From assembly GCF_013343005.1 (NCBI RefSeq), contig NZ_CP054491.1:1718501-1782500 (forward strand): a stretch of 64,000 nucleotides of DNA. The letters run 5' to 3'. Both the position numbers and the translations under genes were made by a program. The first letter of the stretch is position 1, and every line of letters begins with the position of its first letter. Below, in pieces: positions 17,755 to 59,311 of this stretch. The notes beneath the pieces were generated by a model. It worked only from the letters and a program-made list of their open reading frames with translations. It searched no databases and was not told the origin of the DNA. The stretch comes from Candidatus Reidiella endopervernicosa (GTDB lineage: Bacteria; Pseudomonadota; Gammaproteobacteria; GCF-013343005).

Positions 17755-18038
17755 CCGGGGAGTCGCTATTTTTGCGAAAGTTTGTTTTGGGCATCCAAGC
17801 CCAAGCAAACAGCAAAAACTTAACGCGACCGTTTATGCCTACGGCGCCCCGACCGTCCTGCGTTCGTTGCGTAATCACCTCTTCGCGGCTCTACACAACT
17901 CCCTCAGTGACTCTACGCCGACATAAAGCCGCTGCTGCATCTTCTCCGTCGTTCGCTCGCGCTCTCAACTACGAATAGGCAGACGGCGTCGACTATCGGG
18001 ACTAACCGCCCTCACTTCGCTCTCCATGGCGGTCAGCG
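17755..18038 (-). repeat. Dispersed 280-bp element, copy 1
   Basis: This is a complete 284-bp copy, the only one in reverse orientation. On the plus strand it begins CCGGGGAGTCGC and ends GGCGGTCAGCG. It belongs to subfamily A (right hairpin GTTTG/CAAAC) and has the GAGAGCGAAGTGAGG variant of the left hairpin. It sits between two minus-strand genes. The rejoined target would be ATCAGTA|AATGAGA, with no target duplication. Confidence 0.93.
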
Positions 18039-18645: not shown

Positions 18646-20595
18646 TTAGCGATTGGCTCGATTCTCGATCAGGTCATCGACCACGGCTGGATCGGCCAGG
18701 GTCGAGGTGTCACCTATCGAATCCTGCTCATTGGCAGCAATCTTACGCAAAATGCGTCGCATGATCTTGCCAGAGCGGGTCTTTGGCAGCCCCGGTGCCC
18801 ACTGAATGACATCGGGTGAGGCGATCGGACCGATCTCGGTTCGAACCTGTTTGACCAGCTCTTTACGTAGTTGATCGGTCGGCTCAACACCCTTGACCAG
18901 GGTGACGTAGGCGTAGATGCCTTCGCCCTTGATATCGTGCGGGAAGCCGACAACAGCTGCCTCGGCAACCGTATCGTGCAGTACCAGTGCGCTCTCAACC
19001 TCTGCCGTACCCATGCGGTGACCGGAGACGTTGAGCACGTCATCCATACGCCCGGTGATCCAGTAGTAACCATCGGCATCGCGCTTGGCACCGTCGCCCG
19101 AGAAGTAGTAGCCGGGGTAGGTCTTGAAATAGGTGTCGATAAAACGTTGGTGATCACCATAGATGCTTCGCATCATGCCTGGCCAGGGGCGGGTCATGAC
19201 CAGAGCGCCGGAGACCTCACTGCCGGCATCGGTCAGCTGGTTGCTGGTGGTGTCGACCAGACCGGGTGAGACGCCGAAGAAGGGGTTGGTGGCTGAGCCG
19301 GGTTTGAGTGCAGTAGCCCCCGGCAGCGGTGTGAGCAGGTGACCGCCGGTCTCAGTCTGCCACCAGGTATCGACAATTGGGCAGCGTCCATCGCCAACTA
19401 CGTTGTAGTACCACTGCCACGCCTCGGGGTTAATCGGCTCACCGACGGTACCGAGCAGACGCAGGCTGCTGCGTGAATACTTCTTCACCGGCTCATCACC
19501 ATCACGCATCAATGCACGGATCGCAGTCGGTGCGGTGTAGAAGACCGAGACCTGATGTTTGTCGACCACCTGCCAGAAGCGTGAGCTATCGGGGTAGGTC
19601 GGTACACCCTCGAAGGAGAGGGTGGTTGCGCCGATCGCCAGTGGGCCGTAGATCAGGTAGCTGTGGCCGGTGACCCAGCCGACATCGGCGGTGCACCAGT
19701 AGGTGTCACCCTCCTGAATATCGAAGACATACTTGGTGGTCATCGCCGCATAGAGCAGATAACCACCAGTGGTGTGCAGCACACCCTTCGGTTTGCCGGT
19801 AGAACCTGAGGTGTAGAGGATGAAGAGCGGATCTTCGGCATCCATCGGCTCGGGCGGGCAGTCGGTCGAGGCCGCTTCTATAGCGTTGTGGTACCAGATG
19901 TCGCGTGACTCATTCCAGGCAATATCGCCACCGGTGCGTTTTACGGTCAGAACGGTGTGTACATTGGGGCAGTTCTCCAACGCCTTGTCGGTATTCGTCT
20001 TCAGTGGAACCGGACGACCACCACGCAGGCCCTCATCGGCGGTGATCACCACCTGGCAATCTGAATCGAGAATACGGTCCTTCAACGCCTCAGGCGAGAA
20101 GCCACCAAAGACGACAGAGTGGATCGCACCGATACGTGAACAGGCGAGCATCGCGTAGGCCGCCTCGGGCACCATTGGCATGTAGATGCAGACTCGGTCG
20201 CCCTTCTTAACGCCGCGCCCCTTGAGTACGTTGGCCAGACGGGTGACGTTGTCGTAGAGCACCTGATAGGTGATCTTTTTGTCGACGCTCGGATCGTCTC
20301 CCTCCCAGATAATGGCGGTCTGATTGGCGCGTTTCTCCAGATGGCGGTCGATACAGTTGTAGGAGACATTGAGCTTGCCACCCTCGAACCACTTGATGAA
20401 TACATCGTCCTCAAAGCTCCAGTCGAGCACCTTATCCCAGGGTTTATCCCAGCTTAGAAACTGCTCGGCCATATCACCCCAGAAACCCTCAGGATCGTCG
20501 ATCGATCGTTGGTACATCTCCTGATACTGCGCTTCATTGATGTTCGCCTTGGCGGCGAACTCGGCGGGGACTGGATAAAGTTTGCTCTCGGACAT
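18646..20595 (-). CDS. acs: Acetyl-coenzyme A synthetase
   Basis: Acs activates acetate with ATP and CoA to acetyl-CoA via acetyl-AMP. It is 649 aa from the chosen start. The AMP-binding motif is [43 protein letters not shown] and the C-terminal [11 protein letters not shown] with the lysine normally controlled by acetylation are present. The frame opens at 20613, but GAGGAG sits 6 bases before the ATG at 20593-20595 ([13 protein letters not shown]), which decides the start. It lies with a DnaQ-like exonuclease, DUF294 proteins and an SSS/DUF4212 transporter, a conserved acetate-use cluster. Confidence 0.96.
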
Positions 20596-20654
20596 CGGTT
20601 GCTCCTCATTCAATGATTACTGCTAGTGCTATGTTTAGTTTTTCAATCTTATGA

Positions 20655-21347
20655 CTACTGTCGATAGAGTAGTCGTTTTAAAGCTATCGGTTGGCCATCG
20701 TCGCGCTGTGCGATCTGTGCCAGATAGAGTTCTGCTGCTGCCAGCGCGTCGCTCAGTGCGTTATGCGCCTGGTAGCGCGGCAGGTGGTAGTGTTCGCGCA
20801 GTGCTGCCAGCCGCAGTGACTTGGCCGCATAAACACGGTCGCGGCGTTCCAGCCAATCCTTTGCCAGCGTCAGGGTATCGACGACGGGTGACAGAAAGGC
20901 AACACCGTATAAACGCTGACAGGCGCGGCTGAGAAACTGCATCTCAAAACGCGCATGGTGCGCGATCATCACTCGACCTACCAGACGCGGTAGCAGCTCC
21001 CTCATCGCCTGTTCCAGGCTGACGCCCTTGGCCGCTTCATCGTCGGTAATGGCGTGAATCACCGCACTCTGTTCAGGCATCTCACGACTCGGTCTCAGCA
21101 GACAGTACCAGGAGCTGCCGAGATCGATGCTCAAGCCGTTCAAGCATACCAAGCCGATACTGATAATTTCATCCCGCTGTGGATTCAGTCCGGTCGTCTC
21201 CAGATCGATCGCCACCATTGGTAATTTACGACTATCACTGCCACTTGCCGGAAAGGGCCGAGAGAGGTAGTCGTGCATCGGCCCGGTAGGAGTGCGCGCC
21301 AGCAGGCGTCGTCGCTGAAAATCGAGAGGGAGGAACCGATCAAACAT
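20655..21347 (-). CDS. DnaQ-like 3'-5' exonuclease (DEDD family)
   Basis: The 230-aa protein has the exonuclease motifs: ExoI MVAIDLETTGLNPQRDEI, ExoII around MIAHHARFEMQFLSRAC, and ExoIII AHNALSDALAAAELYL. It resembles DNA polymerase III epsilon but is separate from the replication gene. In many gammaproteobacteria this gene accompanies a cNMP-CBS-DUF294 protein and acs, as here. It starts 2 bases after the DUF294 gene stop. The role in acetate metabolism is unknown. Confidence 0.88.
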   Translation of the reverse strand: MFDRFLPLDFQRRRLLARTPTGPMHDYLSRPFPASGSDSRKLPMVAIDLETTGLNPQRDEIISIGLVCLNGLSIDLGSSWYCLLRPSREMPEQSAVIHAITDDEAAKGVSLEQAMRELLPRLVGRVMIAHHARFEMQFLSRACQRLYGVAFLSPVVDTLTLAKDWLERRDRVYAAKSLRLAALREHYHLPRYQAHNALSDALAAAELYLAQIAQRDDGQPIALKRLLYRQ

Positions 21348-21349
21348 CT

Positions 21350-23215
21350 CTAGTAGAACCGTTCCGTCTGGTAGCGCTGTTCAATGGTCGCCTGCATGGT
21401 ACGAATCACCACAAAGACGTCCTTGAGCTGTTCGCGCTCAAGACTCGAGAGATCGTCAGGGCTGAGGTAGTTATCGACCGGTTCACCGGCCCGAATCTGA
21501 CGGCTCTGGTGGTGCAGACGCAGGGTGGCGATAAAGGCGAGCGCATGCTCCAGATCGGCCGCACCCTCCTTGCTGAGTGATGGCGTACCGGCAGCGGCGC
21601 GCAGACGATCGCGGGTGTTGAGTTCAGACAGCCCCTCGGCCAGTGCATAGAGTCGTGCCAGCTCAACAATCGGCATGGTGCCACGCTGCTTTAGATCGAG
21701 GGTGCGGTTGTGTTCACCGTCATGGATCAGTACGAAGTTTCTGAAGAAACCGAGCGGTGGACGTTGATCGAGTGCGTTGGCGGCCATGTGGGCATGGAAA
21801 ATGCCGTTCTGTTGGCACTGCTTGAGCATCGGTTTATGTAGCGCCTCGAACAGCGCTTCATCACCGTAGATCGGTCGCATGTCGAAAAAAATGCTGGTAT
21901 GCATCAGCGCTTTACGTTCCGGGGCGTTGATCCAGCGATCAAAGTAGCTCTGCCAGCCTGAGAGGGTCTGTCGCCACGCTGCGTTGTTGGCCATCACCTC
22001 ACCGGGACAATATTTATAGCCGCAGAGATTCAGGCCGTCATTGACCTCCTGAGTCAGCTGCTCAAAGTAGACGTCATGCTCGGCCTTGTGAGACTCCTCA
22101 TAGAGTAGTCCGTTGTCCTGATCGGAGTGGATACTCTGCTCATGACGAGCCTGCGAGCCGTAGCTGAGCCAGACGTAGGGGTGGGGTGGTGGTCCCAGAC
22201 GTGCCTCGCTCTGTATGATCAGACGACGAGTAACCGCATCGGTCAGCGCCGAGAGGGTCTGACCAATCTGGTAGGCGTTGGTACCAACGGCGACCAGCTG
22301 TGACTGCAGCTCGGGCAGACGTTTGCAGACCACCGCCAGCTCTTCAGCACTATCACACTTCTCGATCTGACCGATCAGGGCGATGCTGTTGATGCTCTGC
22401 TGGCGCAACAGGTCGCTGTTGGAGATCAGACCGATCAGCTCCTCACCATCGCAGACCGGCAGGTGGTGCACGTTGAGGCGCGTCATGGTGATCGCCACCT
22501 CACCGATATCGTCGTTGGGTGAGACGCTACTGACGGGAGTGCTCATGATCTTGCGAATCGGCCACTCAGTGGATAGCCCCTCGGCAATCGCGCGTGCACG
22601 CAGATCACGGTCGGTAACGATGCCGCAGAGCTTGTCCTTGTCGAGGATCAGCAACGAGGAGATACGCTCGCTGGTCATTAGCTGCGCCGCTTCGCGAATT
22701 GAGGTCTCGGCGGGCAGGGTGATCGGTTTGCGCTGCACCAGTTCCGCCACGCTGATCGAGAGTGGGGTGCCACTCTGCATCGGCGACTGCTGCAGGTTCT
22801 GCAGAGCATCACGCAGACTCTCACGTAGCGAACGGTCGAGCTGAGAGTTGAACCAGGGGTAGCGCTGGCGCAGGCTGCGAATCTCGGTGCAGTCGATCTG
22901 ATAGAGCAGAGTGTCTTCGAGGGTGACACCACGGAAGTCGAAACCATCCTCCTCATCAAGACAGTGGGAGAGGTGAATATCCCCCTCGCCATAGCGATCG
23001 ATCAGAACGCCGTTGCCGTCGTGTAGCTCGACTGCACCCTTGCGCACCATATAGAGGGCGGTGCTTTCACTGTCGGTGGGGGGAAAGGGGGTGCCACGGC
23101 GCAGATAGCGAATCGTGATCAGCTCAGGGATACGTGCCAGCTCATCATCGGGCAGCCCGTTGAACGGCGGATAGGCCGCAACGAACTCTCGAATCTCTAT
23201 CAGTTCTACATCCAT
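21350..23215 (-). CDS. cNMP-binding/CBS/DUF294 nucleotidyltransferase-like protein (paralogue 1)
   Basis: The 621-aa protein has four parts in order: a cyclic-nucleotide-binding-like domain (about 20-140), two CBS motifs (about 160-280), a DUF294 putative nucleotidyltransferase domain (about 320-460) and a DUF294 C-terminal helical domain. The nucleotidyltransferase part has SYGSQARHEQSIHSDQDNGL, a GS..DxD-like arrangement. Members are thought to be GlnD-like signalling enzymes; substrate unproven. It overlaps functionally and spatially with exonuclease, symporter and acs genes. A second paralogue lies at 25885-27771. Confidence 0.88.
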   Translation of the reverse strand: MDVELIEIREFVAAYPPFNGLPDDELARIPELITIRYLRRGTPFPPTDSESTALYMVRKGAVELHDGNGVLIDRYGEGDIHLSHCLDEEDGFDFRGVTLEDTLLYQIDCTEIRSLRQRYPWFNSQLDRSLRESLRDALQNLQQSPMQSGTPLSISVAELVQRKPITLPAETSIREAAQLMTSERISSLLILDKDKLCGIVTDRDLRARAIAEGLSTEWPIRKIMSTPVSSVSPNDDIGEVAITMTRLNVHHLPVCDGEELIGLISNSDLLRQQSINSIALIGQIEKCDSAEELAVVCKRLPELQSQLVAVGTNAYQIGQTLSALTDAVTRRLIIQSEARLGPPPHPYVWLSYGSQARHEQSIHSDQDNGLLYEESHKAEHDVYFEQLTQEVNDGLNLCGYKYCPGEVMANNAAWRQTLSGWQSYFDRWINAPERKALMHTSIFFDMRPIYGDEALFEALHKPMLKQCQQNGIFHAHMAANALDQRPPLGFFRNFVLIHDGEHNRTLDLKQRGTMPIVELARLYALAEGLSELNTRDRLRAAAGTPSLSKEGAADLEHALAFIATLRLHHQSRQIRAGEPVDNYLSPDDLSSLEREQLKDVFVVIRTMQATIEQRYQTERFY

Positions 23216-23392: not shown

Positions 23393-25174
23393 TTAGTGAT
23401 CAGTAGCAGAACCCGAACCACGAGGGATACGGATATCTTCTACCAGGTGCTGGATATGCTCCGGAGGCGGTGCAGTGACACGAGACACTGCAATCGCAAC
23501 TGCGAAGTTAACCGCTGCACCAATGGCACCAAAGGCATTCGGCGAGATGCCGAAGAACCAGTTGGGACCCATGTCACCGAGGAACGAGGTTCCAGGGATA
23601 AACATGATGCCCTTGTGCTGGAACACGTAGAGCATGGTGACACCGATACCTGCAACCATGCCCGAGATCGCTGCGGTGCTGCCGATCTTCTTGCCAAAGA
23701 TACCCATCATCAAGGCTGGGAAGATCGAGGCCGCCGCCAGACCGAAGGCGATGGCCACCGTACCCGCTGCAAAGCCGGGGGGGTGTAGACCGAAGTAACC
23801 CGCTGCACCAATGGCGCCGATCATCGCTATTCGACCGGCCATCAGCTCGTTCTTCTCAGATATGTTGCGGGCAAAGACACCCTTCAACAGATCGTGAGAG
23901 ATTGCAGATGCAATGGCCAACAGCAGACCCGCTGCGGTTGATAGCGCCGCCGCTAGACCACCTGCAACCACCAGTGCAACCACCCAGTTAGGCAGTTTGG
24001 CGATCTCAGGATTGGCCAGAACCATGATGTCACGGTCGACCTTGGTCATCTCATTGCCCTTCCAGCCGTAAGATTCAGCCTTGGCAGCGAACTCAGGGTT
24101 CTTGTCGTTGTAGTACTGGATACGACCGTCGCCGTTCTTATCCTCATACTTCAGCAGACCGGTCTTCTCCCAGTTCTTGAACCACTGAGGAACCTCGGCG
24201 TACTCGACATTACCTTCAGCTGAACCGATCTCACCGACCTGGATGGTCTGCATCAGGTTCAGACGAGCCATCGCACCAACAGCAGGCGCGGTGGTGTAGA
24301 GGAGGGCGATGAATACCAGAGCCCAGCCGGCTGATTTACGTGCATCAGCAACCTTAGGTACGGTGAAGAAACGAACGATAACGTGAGGCAGACCCGCGGT
24401 ACCGATCATCAAGGTCAGGGTGTAGACAAACATGTCTAACTTACCTGCCATGGTACTGGTGGTGTAGTCCTTAAAGCCGAGATCGGTGACCACCATGTCG
24501 AGCTTGTCGAGCATCGAGATACCTTCACCCACAACATCGCTACCCAGACCCAGCTGTGGCAGTGGGTTACCCGTAATGTTCAGTGAGATGAACACGGCCG
24601 GAACGGTGTAGGCGAAGATCAGAACGACATACTGTGCGATCTGTGTGTAGGTAATACCCTTCATGCCACCCAGTACTGAGTAGAAGAAGACGATACCCAT
24701 ACCGATGAACAGGCCGGTGTCGTAGTCGGTCTCGAGGAAGCGAGAGAACGCCACGCCGATACCCTTCATCTGGCCAATTACGTAAGTAATAGAGGCCAGA
24801 ATCAGACAGATAACCGCTACGATACGAGCCGTCTGCGAGTAGTAACGATCGCCGATGAACTCTGGAACGGTGAACTTGCCGAACTTACGTAGGTAAGGAG
24901 CAAGCAGCATCGCCAGCAGTACATAACCACCGGTCCAGCCCATCAGGAATACCGATGCGCCGTAACCATTAAAGGCAATCAGACCCGCCATCGAGATGAA
25001 CGACGCGGCAGACATCCAGTCAGCACCGGTAGCCATACCGTTAGCGACCGGGTGGATACCCTTGCCAGCAACATAAAATTCACCCGTGGTGCTCGCGCGT
25101 GCCCAAATGGCGATGCCGATATAGAGCGCAAAGGTGAAACCAACGACCCAATAGGTCAGTGTAGAAAGATCCAT
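23393..25174 (-). CDS. Sodium:solute symporter (SSS), ActP-like acetate permease group
   Basis: The 593-aa protein carries the 12-14 hydrophobic segments of the SLC5/SSS family. Its sequences (NGMATGADWMSAASFISMAG, ALSTAAGLLLAIASAISHDL) are typical of ActP-like and VC2705-type carriers. A hydrophilic insert of about 70 residues (about 315-385, EVPQWFKNWEKTGLL to MTKVDRDIM) is typical of the subgroup that pairs with DUF4212. The DUF4212 partner gene is 14 bases upstream. Together with acs this suggests Na+-coupled acetate or short monocarboxylate uptake at the inner membrane. Exact substrate not shown by sequence. Confidence 0.9.
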   Translation of the reverse strand: MDLSTLTYWVVGFTFALYIGIAIWARASTTGEFYVAGKGIHPVANGMATGADWMSAASFISMAGLIAFNGYGASVFLMGWTGGYVLLAMLLAPYLRKFGKFTVPEFIGDRYYSQTARIVAVICLILASITYVIGQMKGIGVAFSRFLETDYDTGLFIGMGIVFFYSVLGGMKGITYTQIAQYVVLIFAYTVPAVFISLNITGNPLPQLGLGSDVVGEGISMLDKLDMVVTDLGFKDYTTSTMAGKLDMFVYTLTLMIGTAGLPHVIVRFFTVPKVADARKSAGWALVFIALLYTTAPAVGAMARLNLMQTIQVGEIGSAEGNVEYAEVPQWFKNWEKTGLLKYEDKNGDGRIQYYNDKNPEFAAKAESYGWKGNEMTKVDRDIMVLANPEIAKLPNWVVALVVAGGLAAALSTAAGLLLAIASAISHDLLKGVFARNISEKNELMAGRIAMIGAIGAAGYFGLHPPGFAAGTVAIAFGLAAASIFPALMMGIFGKKIGSTAAISGMVAGIGVTMLYVFQHKGIMFIPGTSFLGDMGPNWFFGISPNAFGAIGAAVNFAVAIAVSRVTAPPPEHIQHLVEDIRIPRGSGSATDH

Positions 25175-25188
25175 TATTTAATCCCCCG

Positions 25189-25449
25189 TTAGTCTTCGTG
25201 GACGTCGAATTGACGATCGAGGTCACCCATCTTCTTCGCGTAATAGAAGATGAGAGCAACGAAGGTGTAGATAGAACCCTGCTGTGCAAACCAGAAGCCG
25301 AGCTTATAGCCGCCTATCTGAATCGCATTGAGTGGTTCAGCCAGTAAGATTCCGAAGCCATAAGAGACGACGAACCATATGGTCAGGCAGATCATCAACA
25401 AGCGAAGATTCGCCTGCCAATAGGCCGCCTTGTTCTCGTTTGTACTCAT
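25189..25449 (-). CDS. DUF4212 small subunit of SSS symporter
   Basis: The 86-aa protein has two transmembrane helices (LLMICLTIWFVVSYGFGILL and FWFAQQGSIYTFVALIFYYA) around the family sequence FKLGFWFAQQGSI-like GYKLGFWFAQQGSIY. The C-terminus is charged (KKMGDLDRQFDVHED). GGGAG lies upstream of the ATG. DUF4212 proteins are encoded immediately before their symporter and are taken to be an accessory subunit. Confidence 0.93.
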   Translation of the reverse strand: MSTNENKAAYWQANLRLLMICLTIWFVVSYGFGILLAEPLNAIQIGGYKLGFWFAQQGSIYTFVALIFYYAKKMGDLDRQFDVHED

Positions 25450-25594
25450 AAATATTTCTCCCGGTTGTGTAACTTCTGCTATTTGCCTTCCTGGCTTGGT
25501 GGTACCGCTGATCGCTTAGCGATTCCAATACGAACCCGTCTCCTCATTCGGATTCGTATTCGGCGTGGAACGGATCGTTTCGCACCACGCCAAA

Positions 25595-25869
25595 CGCTGA
25601 CCGCCATGGATGAAGCGAAGGCGGTTAGTCCGCGATAGTCGACGCCGTCTGCATATTCGTAGTTGAGAGCGCGAGCGAGCGACGAAGAGATGCAGCACGG
25701 CTTTATGTCGGCGTAGAGTCACTGAGGAGTTGTGTGAGCCGCGAAGGGTGATTACGCAACGAACGCAGGACGTCGAGGCGCCGTAGGCATAAATGGTCGC
25801 GTTAAGTTTTTGCTGTTGTGCTGGGCTTGGATGCCCAAAACAAACTTCGCAAAAATAGCGACTCCCCGA
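25595..25869 (+). repeat. Dispersed 280-bp element, copy 2 (degraded)
   Basis: This 275-bp copy has both constant ends (CGCTGACCGCC, GCGACTCCCCGA) but several small deletions, including AGC in the left loop and bases in the GAGGTGATT region. Subfamily A. It lies 15 bases after the stop of the second DUF294 gene and about 145 bases before the DUF4212 start, in the middle of the acetate operon. Confidence 0.92.
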
Positions 25870-25884
25870 TTCTGTCTCAGCCAA

Positions 25885-27771
25885 TCAAAGCTGGTACTCC
25901 AGCGTGATTTTCGATTGCAGCTTGCGCCCCTGACGGAACGCCTCTTTCAAGATGCGGCGATCGAGTTCGTTGAGGGTGTCGGGATCGACACGGTTGCTCA
26001 GTTCATTGCCCGCCTGCGCCTGCTTCTGGTGACCACGCATGCGCAGTAGCTGGATGTAGTCATAGGCCTCTTTCCAAGCGGCCACATCGTCTTCAGAGAG
26101 CGCCGATAGGCGTGCGGCGTGCTGTAGCCGATCGAGGGTGTTGGTCTCACCGATCTGATTGGCCAGCGCATAGAGACGTGCCGCATCAACAAAGGGTGTG
26201 AGCCCCTGCGATTTCAGATCGAGGGTGTGGGCGTACTCGTTAGAGCGGCTCAGCTTGAACTCACCGAACAGCCCCAACGGCGGACGGAACTGCTGGGCGT
26301 TGGCAGCAAGCTGGTGGCGGAAACGACTGTTTCTGGCGCTCCGCTCCAGCAGCCAGCCGCGTAGCTCCTCGGCGCTCTCGGCCTCGCCAAAGAGCACACG
26401 GAAATCGAAGAAGATGGTCGCCTTGAGTAGGTGCTCGGGGGTGCCCTGTTCGATCCAGAGATTAAAGCGCTCACGCCACTCACTTTCGCTCAGGCAGCAC
26501 TCAGGATTGCTCGCCATGATGTTGCCGGGACAGAGCGGGAAACCGCAGCGGTCGAGCGCAGCGTTGATCTTGGCAGCGAGCGGCAGCAGTTCCTGGCGTG
26601 CCTCATCATCACTCTGCCCCTCACGTGGGGTGAAGATGATGCCGTTATCCTGATCGGTCTTGAGGGTCTGCTCATGACGCCCCTCACTGCCAAAGGCGAG
26701 CCAGCTAAAGGGGGTTTTAGGTGTCTCGCCCTCGGCTAAGGTCAGGCGGATAACTCGGCGTGTGACCCGATCATTCAAGGTGGCGATGAGCTGGGTGAGC
26801 TGATTGACCGAGGCGCCCTGAGCCAGCATCTGATCAATCAGGTGGTGGATGTCGTTACCCAGTGCGGTGAGTACATCGACACTCTCAGCACGACTGATCG
26901 CCTGTGAGAGGTTGGCCAGTCCGACGCGCTGTAGCGAGAAGAGGTCGCGTTCGGAGATCATGCCGAGCAGCTTGTCGTGATCGACCACGCAGATGTGACC
27001 AAAGCCGCGCTGTGCCATTAGCAGTGCCGCCTCGTGCGCCATTGCCGAAGCGGGCAGGGTAAGTGGTGCGGTGGTCATTACCTCACTGATCGGGGTATTG
27101 AGATTACGATCGGCGAGCGTTACCCGGCCGAGCAGATCCTTGAGGGTGAAGATGCCGGTAACCTGTTTATCGTTACAGACGATGATGCTGCCGATGTGGG
27201 CGCTGTGCATCGTCTCCAGCGCCTCACGAATCGGTGTCTCCGGGGCGCAGCTGATCGGCTCACGTTTGATCAGGGCGGAGAGCGGAGTATTGAGCGAGGC
27301 GTCACCGGCGATGCGGTTGGCTGAGCTGTGCTGCACGCCGCGAAGTGCGTTATCGAGCATGCTGGCGAGGCGGCGGGTGCAGAAGTCATTGAATGAGTGG
27401 CTCTTCTGCAGCAACTGATCGAAAATCTCACGATCAAGCTCGAAGCAGAAGCTATCCTCGGCGGCGCGGGTCACCATGTGTACCGGACGACGTGCGAGCA
27501 GGGCACCAACCGGGAAGAGCTCACCCGGAGATAGCTCCCAACCCTCCTCGTTGCTCGAGTCGTCCTGACTCGCGCCCTGAATTCGGCCCTGTTTGATGAT
27601 GTAGAGCGAACGGGCCGCGCCGCCATCGGGGGTGATTACCTCCTCGCCACGGGAGAAGAAGGCGAGGCGCAGGTGTTTGGCCAGAAAATCGAGATGAGCA
27701 GGAGCCATCTGATCGAACGGCGCATGGCGTCGCAGGAAATCGATGGTCGGCTGAAGTGGCTCGGTGCTCAT
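25885..27771 (-). CDS. cNMP-binding/CBS/DUF294 nucleotidyltransferase-like protein (paralogue 2)
   Basis: This 628-aa protein has the same layout as paralogue 1: cyclic-nucleotide-binding-like domain (about 20-140), CBS pair (about 165-285), DUF294 domain with AFGSEGRHEQTLKTDQDNGI (about 345-365), and a C-terminal helical domain. It is the first gene of the run leading to DUF4212 and the SSS symporter. A sigma54-type promoter and tandem TGTTAC dyads lie upstream of its ATG. It probably senses nucleotide or energy state to control acetate uptake, an inference from context. Confidence 0.9.
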   Translation of the reverse strand: MSTEPLQPTIDFLRRHAPFDQMAPAHLDFLAKHLRLAFFSRGEEVITPDGGAARSLYIIKQGRIQGASQDDSSNEEGWELSPGELFPVGALLARRPVHMVTRAAEDSFCFELDREIFDQLLQKSHSFNDFCTRRLASMLDNALRGVQHSSANRIAGDASLNTPLSALIKREPISCAPETPIREALETMHSAHIGSIIVCNDKQVTGIFTLKDLLGRVTLADRNLNTPISEVMTTAPLTLPASAMAHEAALLMAQRGFGHICVVDHDKLLGMISERDLFSLQRVGLANLSQAISRAESVDVLTALGNDIHHLIDQMLAQGASVNQLTQLIATLNDRVTRRVIRLTLAEGETPKTPFSWLAFGSEGRHEQTLKTDQDNGIIFTPREGQSDDEARQELLPLAAKINAALDRCGFPLCPGNIMASNPECCLSESEWRERFNLWIEQGTPEHLLKATIFFDFRVLFGEAESAEELRGWLLERSARNSRFRHQLAANAQQFRPPLGLFGEFKLSRSNEYAHTLDLKSQGLTPFVDAARLYALANQIGETNTLDRLQHAARLSALSEDDVAAWKEAYDYIQLLRMRGHQKQAQAGNELSNRVDPDTLNELDRRILKEAFRQGRKLQSKITLEYQL

Positions 27772-27813: not shown

Positions 27814-27828
27814 GCAAGGGTTGTGCCA
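27814..27828 (-). promoter_or_regulatory. Sigma54 (-24/-12) promoter for the DUF294-DUF4212-SSS run
   Basis: On the minus strand the sequence reads TGGCAC-AACCC-TTGC, matching the sigma54 consensus TGGCAC-N5-TTGC exactly. The predicted start is about 12 bases after the GC, leaving about 30 bases of leader before the ATG at 27771. NtrC-type operators lie 64-101 bp further upstream, the normal enhancer distance. Confidence 0.8.
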
Positions 27829-27891
27829 CTCTTTGTCCCTAATAAAAACAGAGGCTTAAGTTGTCTGGTGGGTAGCCAGGTAACACTTTGG

Positions 27892-27929
27892 TGTTACGTT
27901 GTGAAACAGGAGTGTTACGCAACGTAACA
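27892..27929. promoter_or_regulatory. Tandem TGTTAC-N5-GTAACA dyads, candidate CbrB-type enhancer
   Basis: There is one perfect dyad, TGTTAC-GCAAC-GTAACA (27913-27929), and one imperfect dyad, TGTTAC-GTTGT-GAAACA (27892-27908). Their starts are 21 bp apart, two helical turns. A further GTAACA (27880-27885) precedes them. The 17-bp dyad architecture is like NtrC-family sites. I recall that CbrB of Pseudomonas uses TGTTAC/GTAACA half-sites, and a CbrB-like regulator is encoded at 54708-56039. They sit between divergent genes and could serve either. Confidence 0.7.
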
Positions 27930-28048
27930 ACCCAGTGAGGGGGTTGGATCAACGGTTAACTGACAAAGGTGACAAAAAGGTTGCAATATAAGAAGTGCCT
28001 AATAAACTATGGCGTAACTAGATTAATTGACCAATGGAGTCGGGAATT

Positions 28049-28857: not shown

Positions 28858-29488
28858 ATGGATGAAATTGGAGCAATGTTAGTGCTTGTAGCCTGCTAGT
28901 TAATTTAGTAGCTGCACCTTACTACTATCGTAAGCTTCATCGGCTTATAGAGGCCTTAGAGCAATATGCTCCAGAAACATACGAAGTTTTGCAAAAGCCT
29001 AGCCTAAAGAAGCTTGGGTATAAAATGAGCCCTTCAAGCGCTGACCGCCATGGAGAGCGAAGTGAGGGCGGTTAGTCCCCGATAGTCGACGCCGTCTGCC
29101 TATTCGTAGTTGAGAGCGCGAGCGGACGACGAAGAAGATGCAGCAGCGGCTTTATGTCGGCGTAGAGTCACTGAGGGAGTTGTGTAGAGCCGCGAAGAGG
29201 TGATTACGCAACGTACGCAGGACGGTCGGGGCGCCGAAGGCATAAACGGTCGCGTTAAGTTTTTGCTGTTTGCTTGGGCTTGATGCCCAAAACAAACTTT
29301 CGCAAAAATAGCGACTCCCCGGCTCAATGGCCTTGGTAGGCTTTGTATGGAAAAATCATATATCCAAACAAATAATAGTGCGGTCATACTAGCAGGTAAA
29401 AAGCATTTAAAGGGCTCGTTATTTCATTTTAGCAATGGGTGTCATGTTTTTGGGAGTCGCACTAATGATGAGCAGTGCAAATGTATAA
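28858..29488 (+). pseudogene. Integron-cassette gene for a small membrane protein, split by repeat copy 3 and frameshifted
   Basis: After removal of the element at 29039-29322 the sequence encodes an N-terminal hydrophobic segment (MDEIGAMLVLVA then LLVNLVAAPYYYRKLHRL), a helical middle (LEQYAPETYEVLQKPSLKK) and a C-terminal membrane helix (YFILAMGVMFLGVALMMSS). The stop TAA at 29486-29488 overlaps the attC core. Two or three small frameshifts are needed besides the insertion. The arrangement (hydrophobic ends, stop inside attC) is typical of cassette-borne membrane proteins. Function unknown. Confidence 0.6.
29039..29322 (+). repeat. Dispersed 280-bp element, copy 3
   Basis: This is a 284-bp copy with ends CGCTGACCGCC and GCGACTCCCCGG. 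Subfamily A, with the GAGAGCGAAGTGAGG left-hairpin variant. It lies inside the first cassette gene. Exact removal joins TTCAAG to CTCAATGG and keeps the local frame (codons for MSPSSSMALV). No target duplication. Confidence 0.95.
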
Positions 29489-29574
29489 CAAGTTTATCAA
29501 CCATCGCCACTTCGTGGCTGGACCGTAAATGCGCTGCTTCGCAGCAATAGCGACCGGTTATAAAGGCGTTATGA
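29483..29574 (+). other. attC: Integron attC recombination site 1
   Basis: Core sites are GTATAAC (29483-29489) and GTTATGA (29568-29574). The inner arms TTTATCAACC..CGC and GCGACCGGTTATAAA pair with one unpaired C in the first arm, the extrahelical base typical of attC. The centre has two short stem-loops (CCACTTCGTGG and GCTGCTTCGCAGC). The upstream gene stops in the first core and the next gene's ATG is in the second core, the normal cassette layout. Confidence 0.82.
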
Positions 29575-30166
29575 ATCAAGAGATATGGAGAGATTACGTT
29601 GATAGCTGAGTCGTTTGCTACGTGGTAGGGCTTCTAGGGCAATATCGTTCAGAGAAAGGAGCTCAATCTCAACTTGAATATAATGATTTTATGGAATGGC
29701 TATCTAAAGCTAATCATACTGAAGTCAAAGGTCTTCTCGAGTTAAACACGAGTGCAACAATCTACATAAAGGCATTGCTCAACCAAGATCACGAAATATT
29801 CAAACAGAAGCTAGAGAAAATAGATTCTGCTTTAACGGCATTTGCAAGCACTGTAGAAGGATTTTCAGAATTGGCGCAAGCCGTAAATCCAGATGCACTT
29901 CTTTCAGAACAGGCAGTTAGTATACTGGAGCAAATTCAGAATCTGGCGCCACTAAAGTTATTGAATTAAAGATGATGGGCGGCACCGAGTACATATTTAT
30001 TGAAACTAGCGGAAATATTGAAATCACTGAGCCACGGTTTGTCGAAGACGACCTTAAAACATTAGTTGAATACGGCTTACTTCGTCATGATTACAATTCA
30101 AAAGGCGATAATCTGTATATCTCCACAAGAGCTGCTTCACGGTTGGTTTGTGAAAATAATTCATAA
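29571..30166 (+). pseudogene. Cassette gene of unknown function, frameshifted
   Basis: ATG at 29571 lies in the attC core. Reading MNQEIWRDYVDS, the frame breaks, then continues as a helical protein (LEYNDFMEWLSKANHTEVKG, IYIKALLNQDHEIFKQKLEK, AFASTVEGFSELAQAV). After another break near 29967 it ends with FIETSGNIEITEPRFVEDDL and TRAASRLVCENNS, stop 30164-30166 inside the next attC. About 195 residues if repaired. No family recognised. Codon use is AT-rich compared with the flanking chromosome. Confidence 0.6.
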
Positions 30167-30244
30167 CAATTTGTTCAAGTCGTTCGCTTCGCTCACTGGG
30201 ACGCTCCGCGCGTTGCGGCACCGCGCCTTAACAACGCGTTAGGG
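30161..30244 (+). other. attC: Integron attC recombination site 2
   Basis: Core sites are TCATAAC (30161-30167) and GTTAGGG (30238-30244). The inner arms TTGTTCAAG.CG and CGCCTTAACAA pair with an extrahelical C, and the centre is GC-rich and self-complementary. With site 1 at 29483 this defines one complete gene cassette of about 670 bp. No integron integrase is present, so this is a CALIN-type cluster or the end of an array. Confidence 0.85.
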
Positions 30245-30407
30245 GCATGTGGGGCCGGTAGTGAATAGATGACGAAATGTTAAAATATACTAGAGGTAGT
30301 AAATGCCAATAGGAACGATTGACATAAAGTTACGCCCTATAAAGCTTGCATTTTAGTTAGACCTTCAGACAGAGCTTCCTTACTAAAGGCCATAAAATTA
30401 ATTCCTT

Positions 30408-30692
30408 CGCTGACCGCCAAGGATAGCGAAGCGAAGGCGGTTAGTCCGCGATAGTCGACGCCGTCTGCCTATTCGTAGTTGAGAGCGCGAGCGAACGACG
30501 AAGAAGATGCAGCAGCGGCTTTATGTCGGCGTAGAGTCACTGAGGGAGTTGTGTAGAGCCGCGAAGAGGTGATTACGCAACGTACGCAGGACGGTCGGGG
30601 CGCCGTAGGCATAAACGGTCGCGTTAAGTATTTGCCGCTTGCTTGGGCTTGGATGCCCAAAACATGCTTCCGCAAAAATAGCGACTCCCCGA
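30408..30692 (+). repeat. Dispersed 280-bp element, copy 4
   Basis: A 285-bp copy, subfamily B (right hairpin GCTTG with CATGC, one mismatch). Ends CGCTGACCGCC and GCGACTCCCCGA. It interrupts the large nuclease-like gene between codons for AIKLIP and FSCFLDP. Confidence 0.95.
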
Positions 30693-30709
30693 TCTCTTGT
30701 TTTCTCGAT

Positions 30710-30815
30710 CGCTGACCGCCATGGATAGCGAAGCGAAGGCGGTTAGTCCGCGATAGTCGACGCCGTCTGTATATTCGTAGTTGAGAGCGCGAGCGAACGA
30801 CGGAGAAGATGCAGC
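30710..30815 (+). repeat. Dispersed element, copy 5 (truncated)
   Basis: Only the first 106 bp are present, from CGCTGACCGCC to GATGCAGC. Copy 6 then begins directly. It lies 17 bases after copy 4. The missing right part is not found beyond copy 6, so this is a truncation or inter-copy recombination, not a simple nested insertion. Confidence 0.9.
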
Positions 30816-31097
30816 CGCTGACCGCCATGGATAGCGAAGCGAAGGCGGTTAGCCCCGATAGTCGACGCCGCCCGCCTATTCGTAGTTGAGAGCGCGAGCG
30901 AACGACGAAGAAGATGCAGCAGCGGCTTTATGTCGGCGTAGAGTCAGTGAGGAAGTTGTGTAGAGCCGCGAAGAGGTGATTACGCAACGTACGCAGGACG
31001 GTCGGGGCGCCGCAGGCATAAACGGTCGCGTTAAGTTTTGCTGTTTGCTTGGGCTTGGATGCCCAAAACAAACTTTCGCAAAAATAGCGACTCCCGG
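30816..31097 (+). repeat. Dispersed 280-bp element, copy 6
   Basis: A 282-bp copy of subfamily A ending GCGACTCCCGG. Removing copy 5 plus copy 6 as one unit (30710-31097) together with copy 4 restores one reading frame through KLIPFSCFLDPIIPFYRR. Confidence 0.94.
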
Positions 31098-31637
31098 CCA
31101 ATTATTCCGTTTTATAGACGTACGCCAAAGTCTTGGGGAGATGAAATTACGAGAAGCGTGTCTTCCAGAGATATCGTTGATGGTTATATAAAAGCTTTCG
31201 ATCCAGACTACATTGTTCCAATCGGAGATATAAAACTTGATGGCCTAATGATTAATGAAGATAGAATCATCAAATATGGTGACTTAATTGCCGGGGTAAA
31301 AGAAGATGGTACGCCCGGATATGGAATTGGAATGTTTGAGATTCTTAGGTATTTTTATAATAAAGAAGTTAAGTTTGTTAGAAATGAACCTTTGCGTACG
31401 GTTTTTCCCAATATTGGAGGGCGATACAAGGAGTTTTGTCTAGCTTCTTTGGGTTGCTACCAGAGAGCATTGATGCTGATGTGGTGGAAAACTTTGATGG
31501 CGCAGTACACATTCAGCGGCCTTCTGTATCTATTAATAGCTACATGGATTATCTGTCTTCGAATAACGTATTTCCAAGACGATTATCAATGACTGGAATC
31601 ACTCCATACCGTCCTCGATCGCATAATGAAGGGCAAT

Positions 31638-31917
31638 CGCTGACCGCCATGGATAGCGAAGCGAAGGCGGTTAGTCCGCGATAGTCGACGCCGTCTGCCT
31701 ATTCGTAGTTGAGAGCGCGAGCGGACGACGAAGAAGATGCAGCAGCGGCTTTATGTCGGCGTAGAGTCACTGAGGGAGTTGTGTAGAGCCGCGAAGAGGT
31801 GATTACGCAACGTACGCAGGATCGGAGCGCCGCAGGCATAAACGGTCGCGTTAGTTTTTGCTGTTTGCTTGGGCTTGGATGCCCAAAACAAACTTTCGCA
31901 AAAATAGCGACTCCCGG
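31638..31917 (+). repeat. Dispersed 280-bp element, copy 7
   Basis: A 280-bp copy of subfamily A with a small deletion in the middle (GGATCGGAGCGCC). It separates RSHNEGQ from FLMDAGSSLDV in the large broken gene. Exact end is uncertain by one base because of the run GGG at the junction. Confidence 0.94.
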
Positions 31918-33613
31918 GTGTTTTTAATGGATGCGGGAAGCTCGCTTGATGTTATAGATTACTGGAACCTACGAGCTAGTGGTTGGAACGTTATTCCGAT
32001 AGCAAAACAAGTAAGTGATTCTGATTCGGTAAAATCAGCTGTTAGAGAATTTATTGAAGAGAATAATGTTCCTTATAGACATAATCCAAATATGTTCCAC
32101 GGTACTACGATTTTAAAAAGTAGAAGTATTTCTAAAATGATCTTGATGACTTCGTGGCACGGTTGAATATTCCCGTCCCTGAGGATCCTAAGAGATATAA
32201 ATTTTCAATGCAGCACTGGTATCCTCGTATTTGGGATAACTGGGCGAGAGAGAAGGATGGGGTTGGCCGTTGTGAACTCGAAGTAAAGAGGAGCGCCATG
32301 ACCTACAAGCAATACCCGATCAAATATCTATAAAAACAATAGATCCTGTATTATCAGACAGGTTTGGTGGTCATGGTACACACAGATTTGCCAATGAGAT
32401 TGAAATAAGAATATATGGTGATGAAGGGAGCCTTATGCAGAAGTGATTCCTCATGGTATAGATAATTTGAACCACGCAATCGGGGCTATTGGTTTTAACG
32501 AATGGCGGGTCTCAGATAAGGGTTTGGTGTATTTGTCATCTAACAATAAGTGGAGCATGAGTTTTGAGGCGCCTAGAGCTTTAAATATAATGACCTCCTG
32601 GTTCAAATCAAATGGTTGGGAGGTGGAAATTTCTTCTTCCGGACTAATTGCGACTCAGATGTTAAAACAACTCGAAGGGGTTTGGGGTGTAGGACTTCTT
32701 AAAAGAAAAGGGTTGATCGAGTTATTAAATAAAATGAGTGAAGGCAGGGCCTTACTAAAGAACGCTTTCTGGGGAGAGATTCAAAAATTGTAAATGGCGA
32801 AAAGTACAGCTCTGATCCTAAGGGGCTGTTAAAGCGCCTTATAGATCTAAAAATTATTCGTCTAGGAACAGATATTCAGTGCCCGGTGTGTCAACAGTAT
32901 TCCTGGCACAATCTTAGAGAATTAGATTATGAGACAAAGTGTCCCATCTGTTTTAATACGTCAGAAATACCTGCTCATTCTCCTGATGATATAAAGTGGT
33001 CCTATCGGTCACATGGTGCATTTAGTTTACCAAAGCAGGCATTTGGAGCGTATACCGTTCTTCTAACCTATTATTTATTCGCAAGGACGTTGGATGGTGC
33101 TACCACACCAATGATGAGTTTCAACGCAAGAAAGAATAGAGTAGATATTGAGGCTGACTTATCTTTATTTTTCCAGAAATCAAAATTCGGTAACCCTAAA
33201 AGGTATTTGGTATTTTGCGAGTGTAAGACATTTAATAGATTCGAAAAGAAAGATATAGATAGAATGAAAATAATCACAAAGGAGTTTCCTGGTCTTTACT
33301 TGTGTTTTCCACCATGAATCCCGATCTATCCGAGAAGGAAAAAAGATTAATCAGGCCGTTAGTTAAACAGGGAGAAAGTTGTGGAAGGAAGGGCAAAGTA
33401 ATAACCCAGTGCTTATCCTTACGTCTAATGAGTTGTTGTCTGATATTAGTTTAGAAAATACGTATAAAGAACTTGGGGAAGCATGCTGGTTTTCACGAGC
33501 AGCGGTATGAACTTAATCAGCTTTTACCACTTTGTAATGTAACTCAGCAATTGTATCTAGCCATGGAGTCTTGGTCTGAGTGGTATAACAAAGAAGTGTT
33601 AAAAAGAAAGTGA

Positions 33614-33893
33614 TATCGAGAAAGATGCCCCCATGAAATAGGTGTCAGAGAGGAGAAAAATAGGTGTCAGAGAGTAATTGTTTCTAATATTAGAAGATAA
33701 TGCTCTCTGCCCCGGTTTTCCTAAGTAATCTATAAGGTGTATAAGGGAACCGATCCCTTGCCTCATCTGTAGCTCTGGCCGTCTTCGATGTGTTAGGTTG
33801 TGGTGTCGTTATGTGTGTAATAACAGCTAGTGGTTTAGTGCTATGTCTGCCGATAAGTAATAATGGAATTATTAATTAATACATGGGGTTGAT
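33614..33893. other. Intergenic region with a short direct repeat
   Basis: Two copies of ATAGGTGTCAGAGAG lie 26 bases apart (about 33638 and 33664). Such TCTCTGACACCTAT-type sequences resemble flanks of IS200-like/RAYT transposase units in gammaproteobacteria, so this could be a scar. Otherwise no gene is seen; the last 60 bases are very AT-rich and probably hold the promoter of the next gene. Confidence 0.35.
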
Positions 33894-34493
33894 ATGAATA
33901 TATCTAAATTTATAATGGCTGGAGTGCTATGTGCATGGGCAGTCTCTTCCTATGCGGAAAATTTAAAAGAGGGTGTTCCAGAGGTAAAAACGAAGTTGGA
34001 ATCATTTTCTGCTAATACGGGCGTGGTTATCGTTCGTGGTTTTGAGGTGGTTGGTAAGATTGATGGGCTATATGACGCCTCAATTGAAGTAGAATCGAAA
34101 GAGTTTGTTAATGTAACAAGTGGGAAAAAAGAATACGGAATTACAATTGAGGTAGTAAAAGAAGATGGTCGATATGATAAAAAGCACATCATATATTGAT
34201 TATGACGAAATAGATTCTCTCATTAGTGGTATCGACTATATATCAAAAGTAAATAACTCTTCCACAAGCTTTTCAAGCTTTCAAGCTGATTACTCCACTA
34301 AGGGTGGTCTTAGAGTTTCTACTTTTAGTATGAATAATGAAATCAAGGTGGCTATTTCGAGTGGTCGTATCAACAAAGTAAAGGCGTACTTCAATATCTT
34401 GTTCTTGCCTGATATTCGTGAACTGATTGGGCAAGCAAAAAATAAAATTGATGCTCTAAAAGTTAATAAACAGATTAATAAGTGGGGTCAGAT
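33894..34493 (+). pseudogene. Secreted hypothetical protein, frameshifted and interrupted near its end by the IS3 element
   Basis: A Sec signal peptide (MNISKFIMAGVLCAWAVSSYA) is followed by a beta-rich domain (VKTKLESFSANTGVVIVRGF, LYDASIEVESKEFVNV). The frame breaks at the A-run near 34182 and continues as STSYIDYDEIDSLISGIDYI to INKWGQ. The IS element inserts after 34493. The original last codons lie after it at 35755-35770 (MKLSP stop). Repaired length about 205 aa. In its present form the gene would end IEPPPV using IS sequence. Family not recognised. Confidence 0.7.
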
Positions 34494-34556
34494 TGAACCT
34501 CCCCCAGTTTAACGGGTACTTTTAATAAGCGACAATGTCGCAATAGGAGTATCCAA

Positions 34557-34865
34557 ATGACTAGAAAACGCAAGCCATATAAGACCTACACCAAAGAGTT
34601 CAAATTAGAAGCGGTTCGCCTGATGGATGAGTCTGATAGACCAGCCACTGATATCGCTATGGAGCTTGGTATTCGGCGTAATCAACTCTACAAATGGAAA
34701 GAGCAGTTATCCAACAAAGGAAACAAAGCCTTTGAAGGTCCGGGAAGGCCAAAGAAGCAGGATCAAAGCGAAGTCACCACCCTTCGCCAAGAGAATGAAC
34801 GGCTGAAAGAGGAGCTTGAAATCCTAAAAAAAGCCGCCGCGTACTTTGCGAGGGATCTCAAGTGA
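34557..34865 (+). CDS. IS3-family transposase OrfA (HTH)
   Basis: The 102-aa protein starts with an HTH of the IS3/IS911 type (YTKEFKLEAVRLMDESDRPA, ELGIRRNQLYKWKEQL) and ends in a leucine-zipper helix (EVTTLRQENERLKEELEILK). Its stop overlaps the OrfB start by four bases (ATGA-type), and a run of A residues near 34830 could allow the -1 frameshift used by this family to make OrfAB. Intact. Confidence 0.93.
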   Translation: MTRKRKPYKTYTKEFKLEAVRLMDESDRPATDIAMELGIRRNQLYKWKEQLSNKGNKAFEGPGRPKKQDQSEVTTLRQENERLKEELEILKKAAAYFARDLK

Positions 34866-35720
34866 AGTACGCCTTTATTCAATCGCTCAGCACAAAGCAT
34901 CGAATTATACGGCTCTGTCATGCGCTTGATGTATCAGTGAATGGCTACTATTCATGGTGCAACCGACCTGAAAGCAAGCGCTCCATTGAGGATCGCCAGC
35001 TCACCGCTAAAATAAAGCTGTTTCACAGGCAAGTCGGCAGATCTATGGATCGCCTCGCATCCATAAAGATCTGCAAGAGATGGGAGAACGTGTTGGTGTT
35101 AATCGTGTGGCCAGACTGATGAGGGCAAATGACATTGCATCTAAGATGGCTAGAAAGTTTGTCATAACGACTAACTCAAAGAACACGATGCAGCCCGCGC
35201 CAGATCTGCTTAAGCGAGAGTTTGATGTGGAAAGACCTGATAAAGCCTGGTCTCTGACACCACCTTGATACCGACGCGGCAAGGGTGGCTTTATCTGGCC
35301 GTCATCATTGATCTCTATTCAAGGCATGTCATTGGCTGGGCTATGAGCAACAATAATAACACTCTACTGGTGAAGGACGCACTCACGATGGCTATCTGGC
35401 GAAGAGGCCGAGTAGAGTCTGTAGTTGTGCACTCAGACCAGGGCAGCACCTATGCTTCAGGTGACTACCAGAGGCTGTTGAAAGAGAGCTCATTACGCTG
35501 CAGCATGAGCCGTAAAGGTGAATGCCTGGATAATGCGGTGGCGGAAAGTTTCTTCGGTACACTTAAGACCGAACTGGTAGATTACGAAGATTACAAAACC
35601 AAACAGGAAGCAAAGCAGAGTCTGTTTGAATACATCGAAGTCTTTTATAACAGACGCAGGCGTCACTCGTACTTGGGGTATGTAAGTCCTGCAGAATACG
35701 AGGCAAAGTGTGCCTCTTAA
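34862..35720 (+). pseudogene. IS3-family transposase OrfB (rve/DDE), two frameshifts
   Basis: The reading frame is split into three parts. MKYAFIQSLSTKHRIIRLCH leads to the first break at about 35045. The second part (VNRVARLMRANDIASKMARK) ends just before the WVSDTT catalytic aspartate because one G is missing at about 35250. The third part has VIIDLYSRHVIGWAMS, VVHSDQGSTYAS and the glutamate in KGECLDNAVAESFFGTLK. DDE residues are all present once repaired. Each break is one base. As written it cannot make transposase. Confidence 0.88.
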
Positions 35721-35782
35721 TTAATTCATCCGTTAAACCGGGGGAGCCTCAGATGAAACTTAGTCCTTGATACCCCTTGTCT

Positions 35783-35905
35783 CCCGGCGCGCACACTCGC
35801 AAGTAATCGGTGAGCAGCTTCAATTAGTAGCATGTCGCCGACGTCATATCCTTTGGTGTCGTTATGAATCTTAAATTGGTCTAGGTCAAGAGCAGGATGG
35901 CTCCG
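35783..35905 (-). pseudogene. Relic of a GGDEF domain (N-terminal half)
   Basis: The minus strand encodes HPALDLDQFKIHNDTKGYD followed by VGDMLLIEAAHRLLASVRAG, the part of a diguanylate cyclase just before its GGDEF motif. The motif itself is not present and the flanks do not continue the domain. It lies just after the IS3 element and its host gene. Confidence 0.75.
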
Positions 35906-36052
35906 TGGTTGTTGCAATGGTCCAAACAATGCAAGACATTGACTGTCTCCCAATCTGCTACCAAACCCTAAGAAAATATCCAATAAGAGGAATGTGGGCT
36001 GTGTGCAAGCTTGCAACTGAAGTCTAAGCCGACCTCTTGTCTCGAAAAGTGG

Positions 36053-59005: not shown

Positions 59006-59195
59006 CGCGTCTCATCCTGCGTTGCAGACGGTAGGCGAAAAAAATGATCGCCAGCCAGATCAGATAGGGGACGTACCAGGGGTTGTCGTCAGCCGCCCAG
59101 ATATCACGCAGTGGCGAGATGAGCAGAAAGAGGACGAAGAGAAAGATGATGACGACACGGTCGATCGTCTGCTCATTTTCGGGGGGGCTATCCAT
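58995..59195 (-). CDS. Small membrane protein preceding the CbrA-like kinase
   Basis: The 66-aa protein has two hydrophobic helices (VVIIFLFVLFLLISPL and WYVPYLIWLAIIFFAYRL) separated by a short loop (RDIWAADDNP) and a basic end (QRRMRRDDL). It overlaps the kinase start by 11 bases, so it is translationally coupled. Such a gene commonly precedes CbrA-like kinases, and it may be an accessory subunit like DUF4212 for SSS carriers, by analogy only. Confidence 0.75.
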   Translation of the reverse strand: MDSPPENEQTIDRVVIIFLFVLFLLISPLRDIWAADDNPWYVPYLIWLAIIFFAYRLQRRMRRDDL

Positions 59196-59215: not shown

Positions 59216-59232
59216 TGTTACTTAACGTAACA
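59216..59232. promoter_or_regulatory. TGTTAC-N5-GTAACA dyad
   Basis: TGTTAC-TTAAC-GTAACA is perfect and shares the spacing and AAC inner bases of the dyad at 27913-27929. It lies 20 bases before the small membrane gene of the cbrA-like operon (-) and 80 before the ATPase (+). Downstream TTGGCTGCTAATATGTG (about 59249-59265) only weakly resembles a sigma54 promoter. Autoregulation of the operon or control of the ATPase are both possible. Confidence 0.55.
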
Positions 59233-59311
59233 CTTCGGCGAGCGGTTTTATGATCCCATTGGCTGCTAATATGTGAGGAAATATCCACCGACATCCTGCA
59301 GGGCGAGAGGC

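Follow-up and report, generated by a model that had tools for sequence, protein, structure and literature searches.

Palindromic sites predicted to bind CbrB precede a probable acetate symporter operon and the cbrXAB locus of Candidatus Reidiella endopervernicosa

Two tandem palindromes (dyads) precede the DUF294-1-DUF4212-SSS operon of Candidatus Reidiella endopervernicosa. We predict that they are binding sites of CbrB, a carbon-sensing regulator, which would drive the operon through sigma54; we assign this reading a probability of about 0.87. Physical binding and activation are what we infer from comparing sequences. The encoded symporter is probably an acetate uptake protein. The only other perfect dyad of the genome lies ahead of cbrXAB and is probably autoregulatory. 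The analysed stretch of 64,000 nucleotides is called the window, and positions are counted from its first letter.

CbrAB is best known for driving crcZ. Published reviews describe the system as unique to Pseudomonadaceae (PMC8871633). Our data contradict this view: of 370 genomes sampled from the class, 40 have a CbrA ortholog (one genome per species, some of them fragmented; the presence call depends on the threshold, E≤1e-180). Here the system comes with a strongly conserved palindromic CbrB operator (predicted), an acetate-type symporter operon as a new kind of target, and a self-site.

Results

The symporter operon and its upstream region

Table 1. Features of the two loci within the window
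Feature	Positions	Strand	Remarks
Acetyl-CoA synthetase AcsA, downstream, co-directional	18646-20613	minus	TIGR02188, 1044 bits (cut-off 725)
3'-5' exonuclease, downstream, co-directional	20655-21347	minus	
DUF294-2, downstream, co-directional	21350-23215	minus	
SSS/SLC5 symporter, VC_2705 family	23393-25174	minus	TIGR03648, 836 bits (cut-off 321)
DUF4212, small membrane subunit of the symporter	25189-25449	minus	translation and conserved position ahead of SSS
DUF294-1, first gene of the operon	25885-27771	minus	cNMP-binding, CBS pair, nucleotidyltransferase (DUF294/DUF294_C)
Sigma54 (-24/-12) promoter TGGCACAACCCTTGC	27828-27814	minus	perfect match to TGGCACN5TTGC
Extra half-site GTAACA	27880-27885		everted relative to TGTTAC of the proximal dyad
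Promoter-proximal dyad, predicted CbrB site	27892-27908		one mismatch to TGTTACN5GTAACA; 63 bp to the sigma54 site
Promoter-distal dyad TGTTACGCAACGTAACA, predicted CbrB site	27913-27929		perfect TGTTACN5GTAACA
CbrB: REC, sigma54 AAA+ with intact GAFTGA, Fis-type HTH (SRKTLWERRQRLGIPK)	54708-56039	minus	
CbrA: SLC5-STAC-PAS-HisKA-HATPase sensor kinase	56042-59005	minus	
CbrX, 66 aa, two predicted membrane segments	58995-59195	minus	
Single perfect dyad, predicted CbrB site	59216-59232		about 20 bp 5' of the cbrX start codon

The substrate of the symporter is probably acetate or a close carboxylate, because the protein is a member of the VC_2705 family and acs follows downstream on the same strand (Table 1). 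The genes of DUF294-2, the exonuclease and AcsA (18646-23215) are same-direction neighbours and candidate members of the operon. On the other side of the dyads, about 105 bp away, a divergent rhodanese gene starts at 28034 on the plus strand.

Along the minus strand from 27929 to 27771 we read the dyad TGTTACGTTGCGTAACA, the dyad TGTTTCACAACGTAACA, the half-site TGTTAC, 51 bp, the sigma54 site TGGCACAACCCTTGC and the ATG of DUF294-1. The predicted transcript start is at about 27802, roughly 30 nt 5' of this ATG. A sequence-only reading had described a sigma54 promoter and two 17-bp tandem dyads at this place, and its coordinates and spacing proved right (a gap of 63 bp, dyads 21 bp apart from start to start).

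The operon region also carries a dispersed repeat of about 275 bp, of which the genome has 42 copies or more, almost all with 91-95% identity (363 candidates at first look), and no long terminal repeats were seen. One copy (25591-25870) is located between DUF294-1 and DUF4212. About ten more lie in the window, at 17756-18038 (other strand), 29037, 30406, 30813, 31636, 38465, 39333, 41057, 50635 and 61907; the part from 29000 to 36000 is poor in long ORFs and rich in such copies.

The cbrXAB locus and the self-site

The complete cbrX-cbrA-cbrB operon is encoded within the window, 30 kb from the symporter operon. All proteins expected of a CbrAB system were found: a CbrA sensor, a two-helix CbrX whose gene overlaps the start of cbrA (58995-59005), and an adjacent CbrB of REC-AAA+-HTH composition. 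CbrA has the domain order and the length (about 980 aa) of the orthologs; it scores 49% against Pseudomonas CbrA over the full length and matches structure 10ed_A over residues 1-591 (E 4e-176). We identify 10ed_A as Pseudomonas CbrA because an SLC5-STAC construct is described in PMC13022988. The GAFTGA, Walker A and REC motifs of CbrB are all intact, and RpoN is encoded in the genome. Reading the ligand of CbrA from the histidine pocket of the Pseudomonas protein gave a mixed result, with 6 of 12 positions identical (including Lys in the Na2 site) and 6 changed, and we make no ligand claim.

The dyad at 59216-59232 was overlooked by the sequence-only reading. It sits between divergent genes, cbrX and a plus-strand gene at 59273, and no sigma54 site was detected near it in the window.

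Representation of the dyads in the genome

Only two perfect dyads occur in the whole genome (3,446,950 bp), one at the symporter operon and one at cbrXAB; the reversed control gives none. Both are in the window, where shuffled sequences lead one to expect 0.01. The sequence-only reading had proposed a genome scan for dyads near a sigma54 site, and in 3.45 Mb the perfect dyad is confined to the operon and cbrX. Four dyads with one mismatch occur elsewhere. Three of them (L015, L017, L019) fall inside ORFs of 100 aa or more, or overlap such ORFs. The fourth (L018) is in an intergenic region and has a weak sigma54-like site. We regard none of the four as a convincing further target. The sigma54 motif alone is not significant, as the window contains 5 sites with at most one mismatch against 5.1 expected. 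Thus the hexamers by themselves are at chance level, and it is their placement relative to the dyads that is significant.

The recognition helix of CbrB (GISRKTLWERRQRLGIPK) is nearly identical to that of Pseudomonas (GVSRKCLWERRQRLGIPR). TGTTAC and GTAACA are the mapped subsites of Pseudomonas CbrB, whose sites were described as non-palindromic and widely spaced (PMC6296734), and the same half-sites stand here upstream of a sigma54 promoter. The claim that CbrB uses half-sites of this type therefore holds with respect to the published half-sites, but not with respect to the layout. Upstream of Pseudomonas crcZ the subsites are spaced, e.g., TGTTAC-N14/15-GTAACA, and three separated subsites (F1-R1-R2) have 20-25 bp between centres; in the studied genome the spacer is N5 and two palindromes stand in tandem. 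We regard this as a variant layout for that reason. In both layouts the two half-sites face the same way, and the spacers differ by about one turn of the helix; a single regulator could thus recognise either arrangement.

Co-occurrence of dyads and CbrA

In the 40 genomes with CbrA we found 25 perfect dyads against 6 reversed-control sites. Twenty-one of the 25 are ahead of cbrX (11), just after cbrB (3), ahead of DUF294-1 (6) or ahead of DUF4212-SSS (1). Another collection adds named carriers of CbrA: Thioalkalivibrio, Alloalcanivorax, Gilvimarinus, Dasania, Seongchinamella, Vreelandella and Pseudomonas. A profile search of genome contigs with the CbrA alignment returned mostly unrelated kinases through their kinase motifs, and only the first nine or ten matches were CbrA.

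Dyads with at most one mismatch were counted in the region upstream of the same symporter. They are present in 18 of 23 genomes with CbrA (one of these, G311, is counted for a dyad 2.3 kb upstream of DUF4212, which may serve a different gene) and in none of 38 without it (Fisher test, 2.6e-11, which ignores the relatedness of the genomes). No dyads were found in four CbrA-less genomes that have a DUF294-1 homolog in the same position (G217, G319, G243, G145). On the symporter tree, CbrA changes about 12 times and the dyad about 11 times. Six independent pairs are well supported: on average, the dyad follows CbrA in 4.8 of them and 1.2 show no difference, and none goes in the opposite direction. 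The sign test (p 0.06) is marginal, given the small number of well-supported independent contrasts. Among the five CbrA genomes lacking dyads, G063 and G141 are affected by contig ends, G149 and G321 have a full CrbS, and G308 has no explanation.

Most dyad-bearing operons have two dyads 19-23 bp apart (45-46 bp in three), a distance of two or four turns of the helix. In 12 of the 18 operons (0.38 expected), a sigma54 site with no more than two mismatches is located 50-74 bp past the dyad; the other 6 have no recognisable site. At the cbr loci, a dyad precedes cbrX in 22 of 39 cases. As a rule, these leaders have one dyad and no sigma54 site; right after the dyad, 8 of the 22 have TGNTA, an extended -10-like element (about 1 expected).

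Some CbrB orthologs have a lost or altered GAFTGA and a retained HTH (L122, L126, L139, L140, L142-L146, L150, L039); Walker A is also lost or altered in CbrB of G311 and G232. In those genomes the action of CbrB may be independent of sigma54.

Sequences downstream of cbrB

In Pseudomonas the slot after cbrB is occupied by crcZ (Rfam RF01675). No Rfam CrcZ match was found in the window, and after cbrB there is no sigma54 site and one CA motif. A CbrAB-CrcZ cascade with crcZ and its sigma54 promoter just downstream of cbrB was thus rejected for the window. Candidates for crcZ-like RNAs were found about 120-380 bp after cbrB (L039-L043) in Alloalcanivorax, Dasania, Gilvimarinus, Seongchinamella and Vreelandella. 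They consist of a sigma54-like site followed by 5-22 AANAAYAA (CA) motifs, and the Rfam CrcZ model does not recognise them.

In relatives of the studied genome, the slot contains DUF294-1 (G278, G114, G287, G094, G318, G351), another symporter (G084, G194, G290) or an apparent ABC substrate-binding protein (G142, G352), with identities taken from the initial residues of each ORF and not from a family search. In G278, G114, G287 and G094, dyads, a sigma54 site and DUF294-1 come immediately after cbrB. Dyads or half-sites, mostly with sigma54 sites, were also seen after cbrB at L136 and L142 and at L128, L130 and L138, ahead of a putative ABC substrate-binding protein and of a second SSS symporter. 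These two proteins are candidates for further CbrB targets.

Discussion

Alternative explanations

The sequence-only reading had claimed that CbrA/CbrB controls DUF294-DUF4212-SSS expression. The exclusivity of the dyads in the genome, their co-occurrence with CbrA, the recognition helix and synteny all argue for this claim. Its own argument, that the window encodes no sigma54 activator besides CbrB, carries little weight in a genome with about eight Sigma54_activat proteins; the case for CbrB rests on comparative data, not on the single activator.

A rival reading is that a different regulator binds the dyads and merely co-occurs with CbrA: a second activator of the NtrC type, such as one of these other proteins, or a CrbR-like protein of the LuxR type. 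Acetate genes of Pseudomonas and Vibrio are indeed controlled by CrbS/CrbR through the ACTU motif and RpoD promoters (PMC5715377). However, the ACTU motif (TACTACCATCGTCGAAT) differs from the dyads, no kinase of the CrbS type passes the threshold in this genome, and we rejected CrbS/CrbR as the regulator here on the latter ground. A full-length hybrid CrbS occurs in none of the 18 genomes with dyad-bearing operons, in 2 of the 5 CbrA genomes without dyads and in 9 of the 38 CbrA-less genomes. Moreover, the second site belongs to the cbrXAB locus, and the half-site matches the one published for CbrB. A different regulator is therefore very improbable. As a separate observation, several genomes (G014, G059, G094, G278, G287, G308 and others) encode a further SLC5-STAC protein, about 900-1000 aa long; its first 640 residues match CrbS at about 45%, and the rest does not match.

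Activators can act in both directions, and the rhodanese gene starts close to the dyads. The dyads could thus be CbrB sites that mainly or also control this gene. We consider it quite improbable, since the perfect sigma54 site points to DUF294-1 and, in relatives, the dyads stay with the symporter operon regardless of the gene on the opposite side, which is often cbrB itself. That the dyads are chance inverted repeats has a negligible probability: the sigma54 site alone does occur at chance frequency if one mismatch is allowed, but the shuffles, the whole-genome scan and conservation in 18 operons and 22 cbrX leaders rule it out. The sequence-only reading had named randomness of the dyads as grounds for refuting it, and they are clearly non-random.

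The self-site is a matter apart and does not affect the reading of the main operon. A protein bound just ahead of a -10-like element usually blocks transcription. With one dyad, no sigma54 site and TGNTA in 8 of 22 leaders, the cbrX site differs from that of the symporter operon, which we interpret as an enhancer. We interpret the cbrX site as an operator, probably of negative self-control, with a sign that we infer from this arrangement. Alternatively, the site may activate cbrXAB, or its target may be the plus-strand gene at 59273. The dyad does lie between two divergent genes, and the sign of regulation is unreadable from sequence; yet no sigma54 site is nearby in the window, and in relatives the dyad stands just 5' of cbrX, in several of them with TGNTA after it. 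This alternative is the less probable of the two.

Proposed mechanism and significance

In our model of CbrB control, CbrA would phosphorylate CbrB, a response regulator of the NtrC type. Phosphorylated CbrB would occupy both palindromes upstream of DUF294-1 and assemble there, on the same face of DNA since the dyads are two helical turns apart. Its AAA+/GAFTGA domain would then open sigma54-RNA polymerase at 27828-27814, and the operon for probable acetate uptake would be switched on. On the single dyad over the cbrX promoter region, CbrB would most likely limit its own synthesis.

We tentatively suggest, with somewhat less than even confidence, that CbrAB is a widespread gammaproteobacterial switch of carboxylate uptake with palindromic sites and self-control and not an invention of Pseudomonadaceae. 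In some lineages an uptake gene driven by CbrB (for DUF294/SSS, a different symporter or an ABC binding protein) would occupy the position after cbrB; in Pseudomonas and its relatives crcZ would have taken that place, and the acetate genes would have come under CrbS/CrbR. If this is true, a local nutrient switch became a global hub of catabolite repression by the replacement of one target. These findings make the origin of Pseudomonas catabolite repression testable, through the question of which role CbrAB had before crcZ. The predicted operator makes CbrB regulons predictable from sequence alone and is suited to footprinting.

Comparison with known systems

The closest known system is CbrXAB of Pseudomonas (cbrX-cbrA-cbrB-crcZ in P. 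putida). It shares with the studied locus the gene order, the overlap of cbrX with cbrA, the SLC5-STAC-PAS-HK sensor, the REC-AAA+(GAFTGA)-HTH regulator with its recognition helix, the TGTTAC/GTAACA half-sites and sigma54 targets. The differences are the tight tandem N5 palindromes instead of separated F1-R1-R2 subsites, the site in front of cbrX, and the target, which is a symporter operon here with no crcZ after cbrB. The self-site is a difference from P. putida because CbrA levels there are independent of CbrA and CbrB (PMC6591292).

CrbS/CrbR (MxtR/ErdR), the acetate switch, is a sister system with an SLC5/STAC kinase. Its targets are acs, actP together with its small partner gene, and a gene for signal transduction that is similar in type (PMC5715377). 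Unlike CbrB, CrbR is a LuxR-type protein that binds the ACTU motif beside RpoD promoters, and the acetate genes that are under CrbS in Pseudomonas and Vibrio would here be under CbrAB.

NtrC uses tandem palindromes upstream of a sigma54 promoter and has a site without sigma54 at its own promoter. The half-site, the sensor and the physiology differ from those described here, but the arrangement is alike: two tandem dyads upstream of a sigma54 promoter, and a site of the regulator at its own promoter without sigma54.
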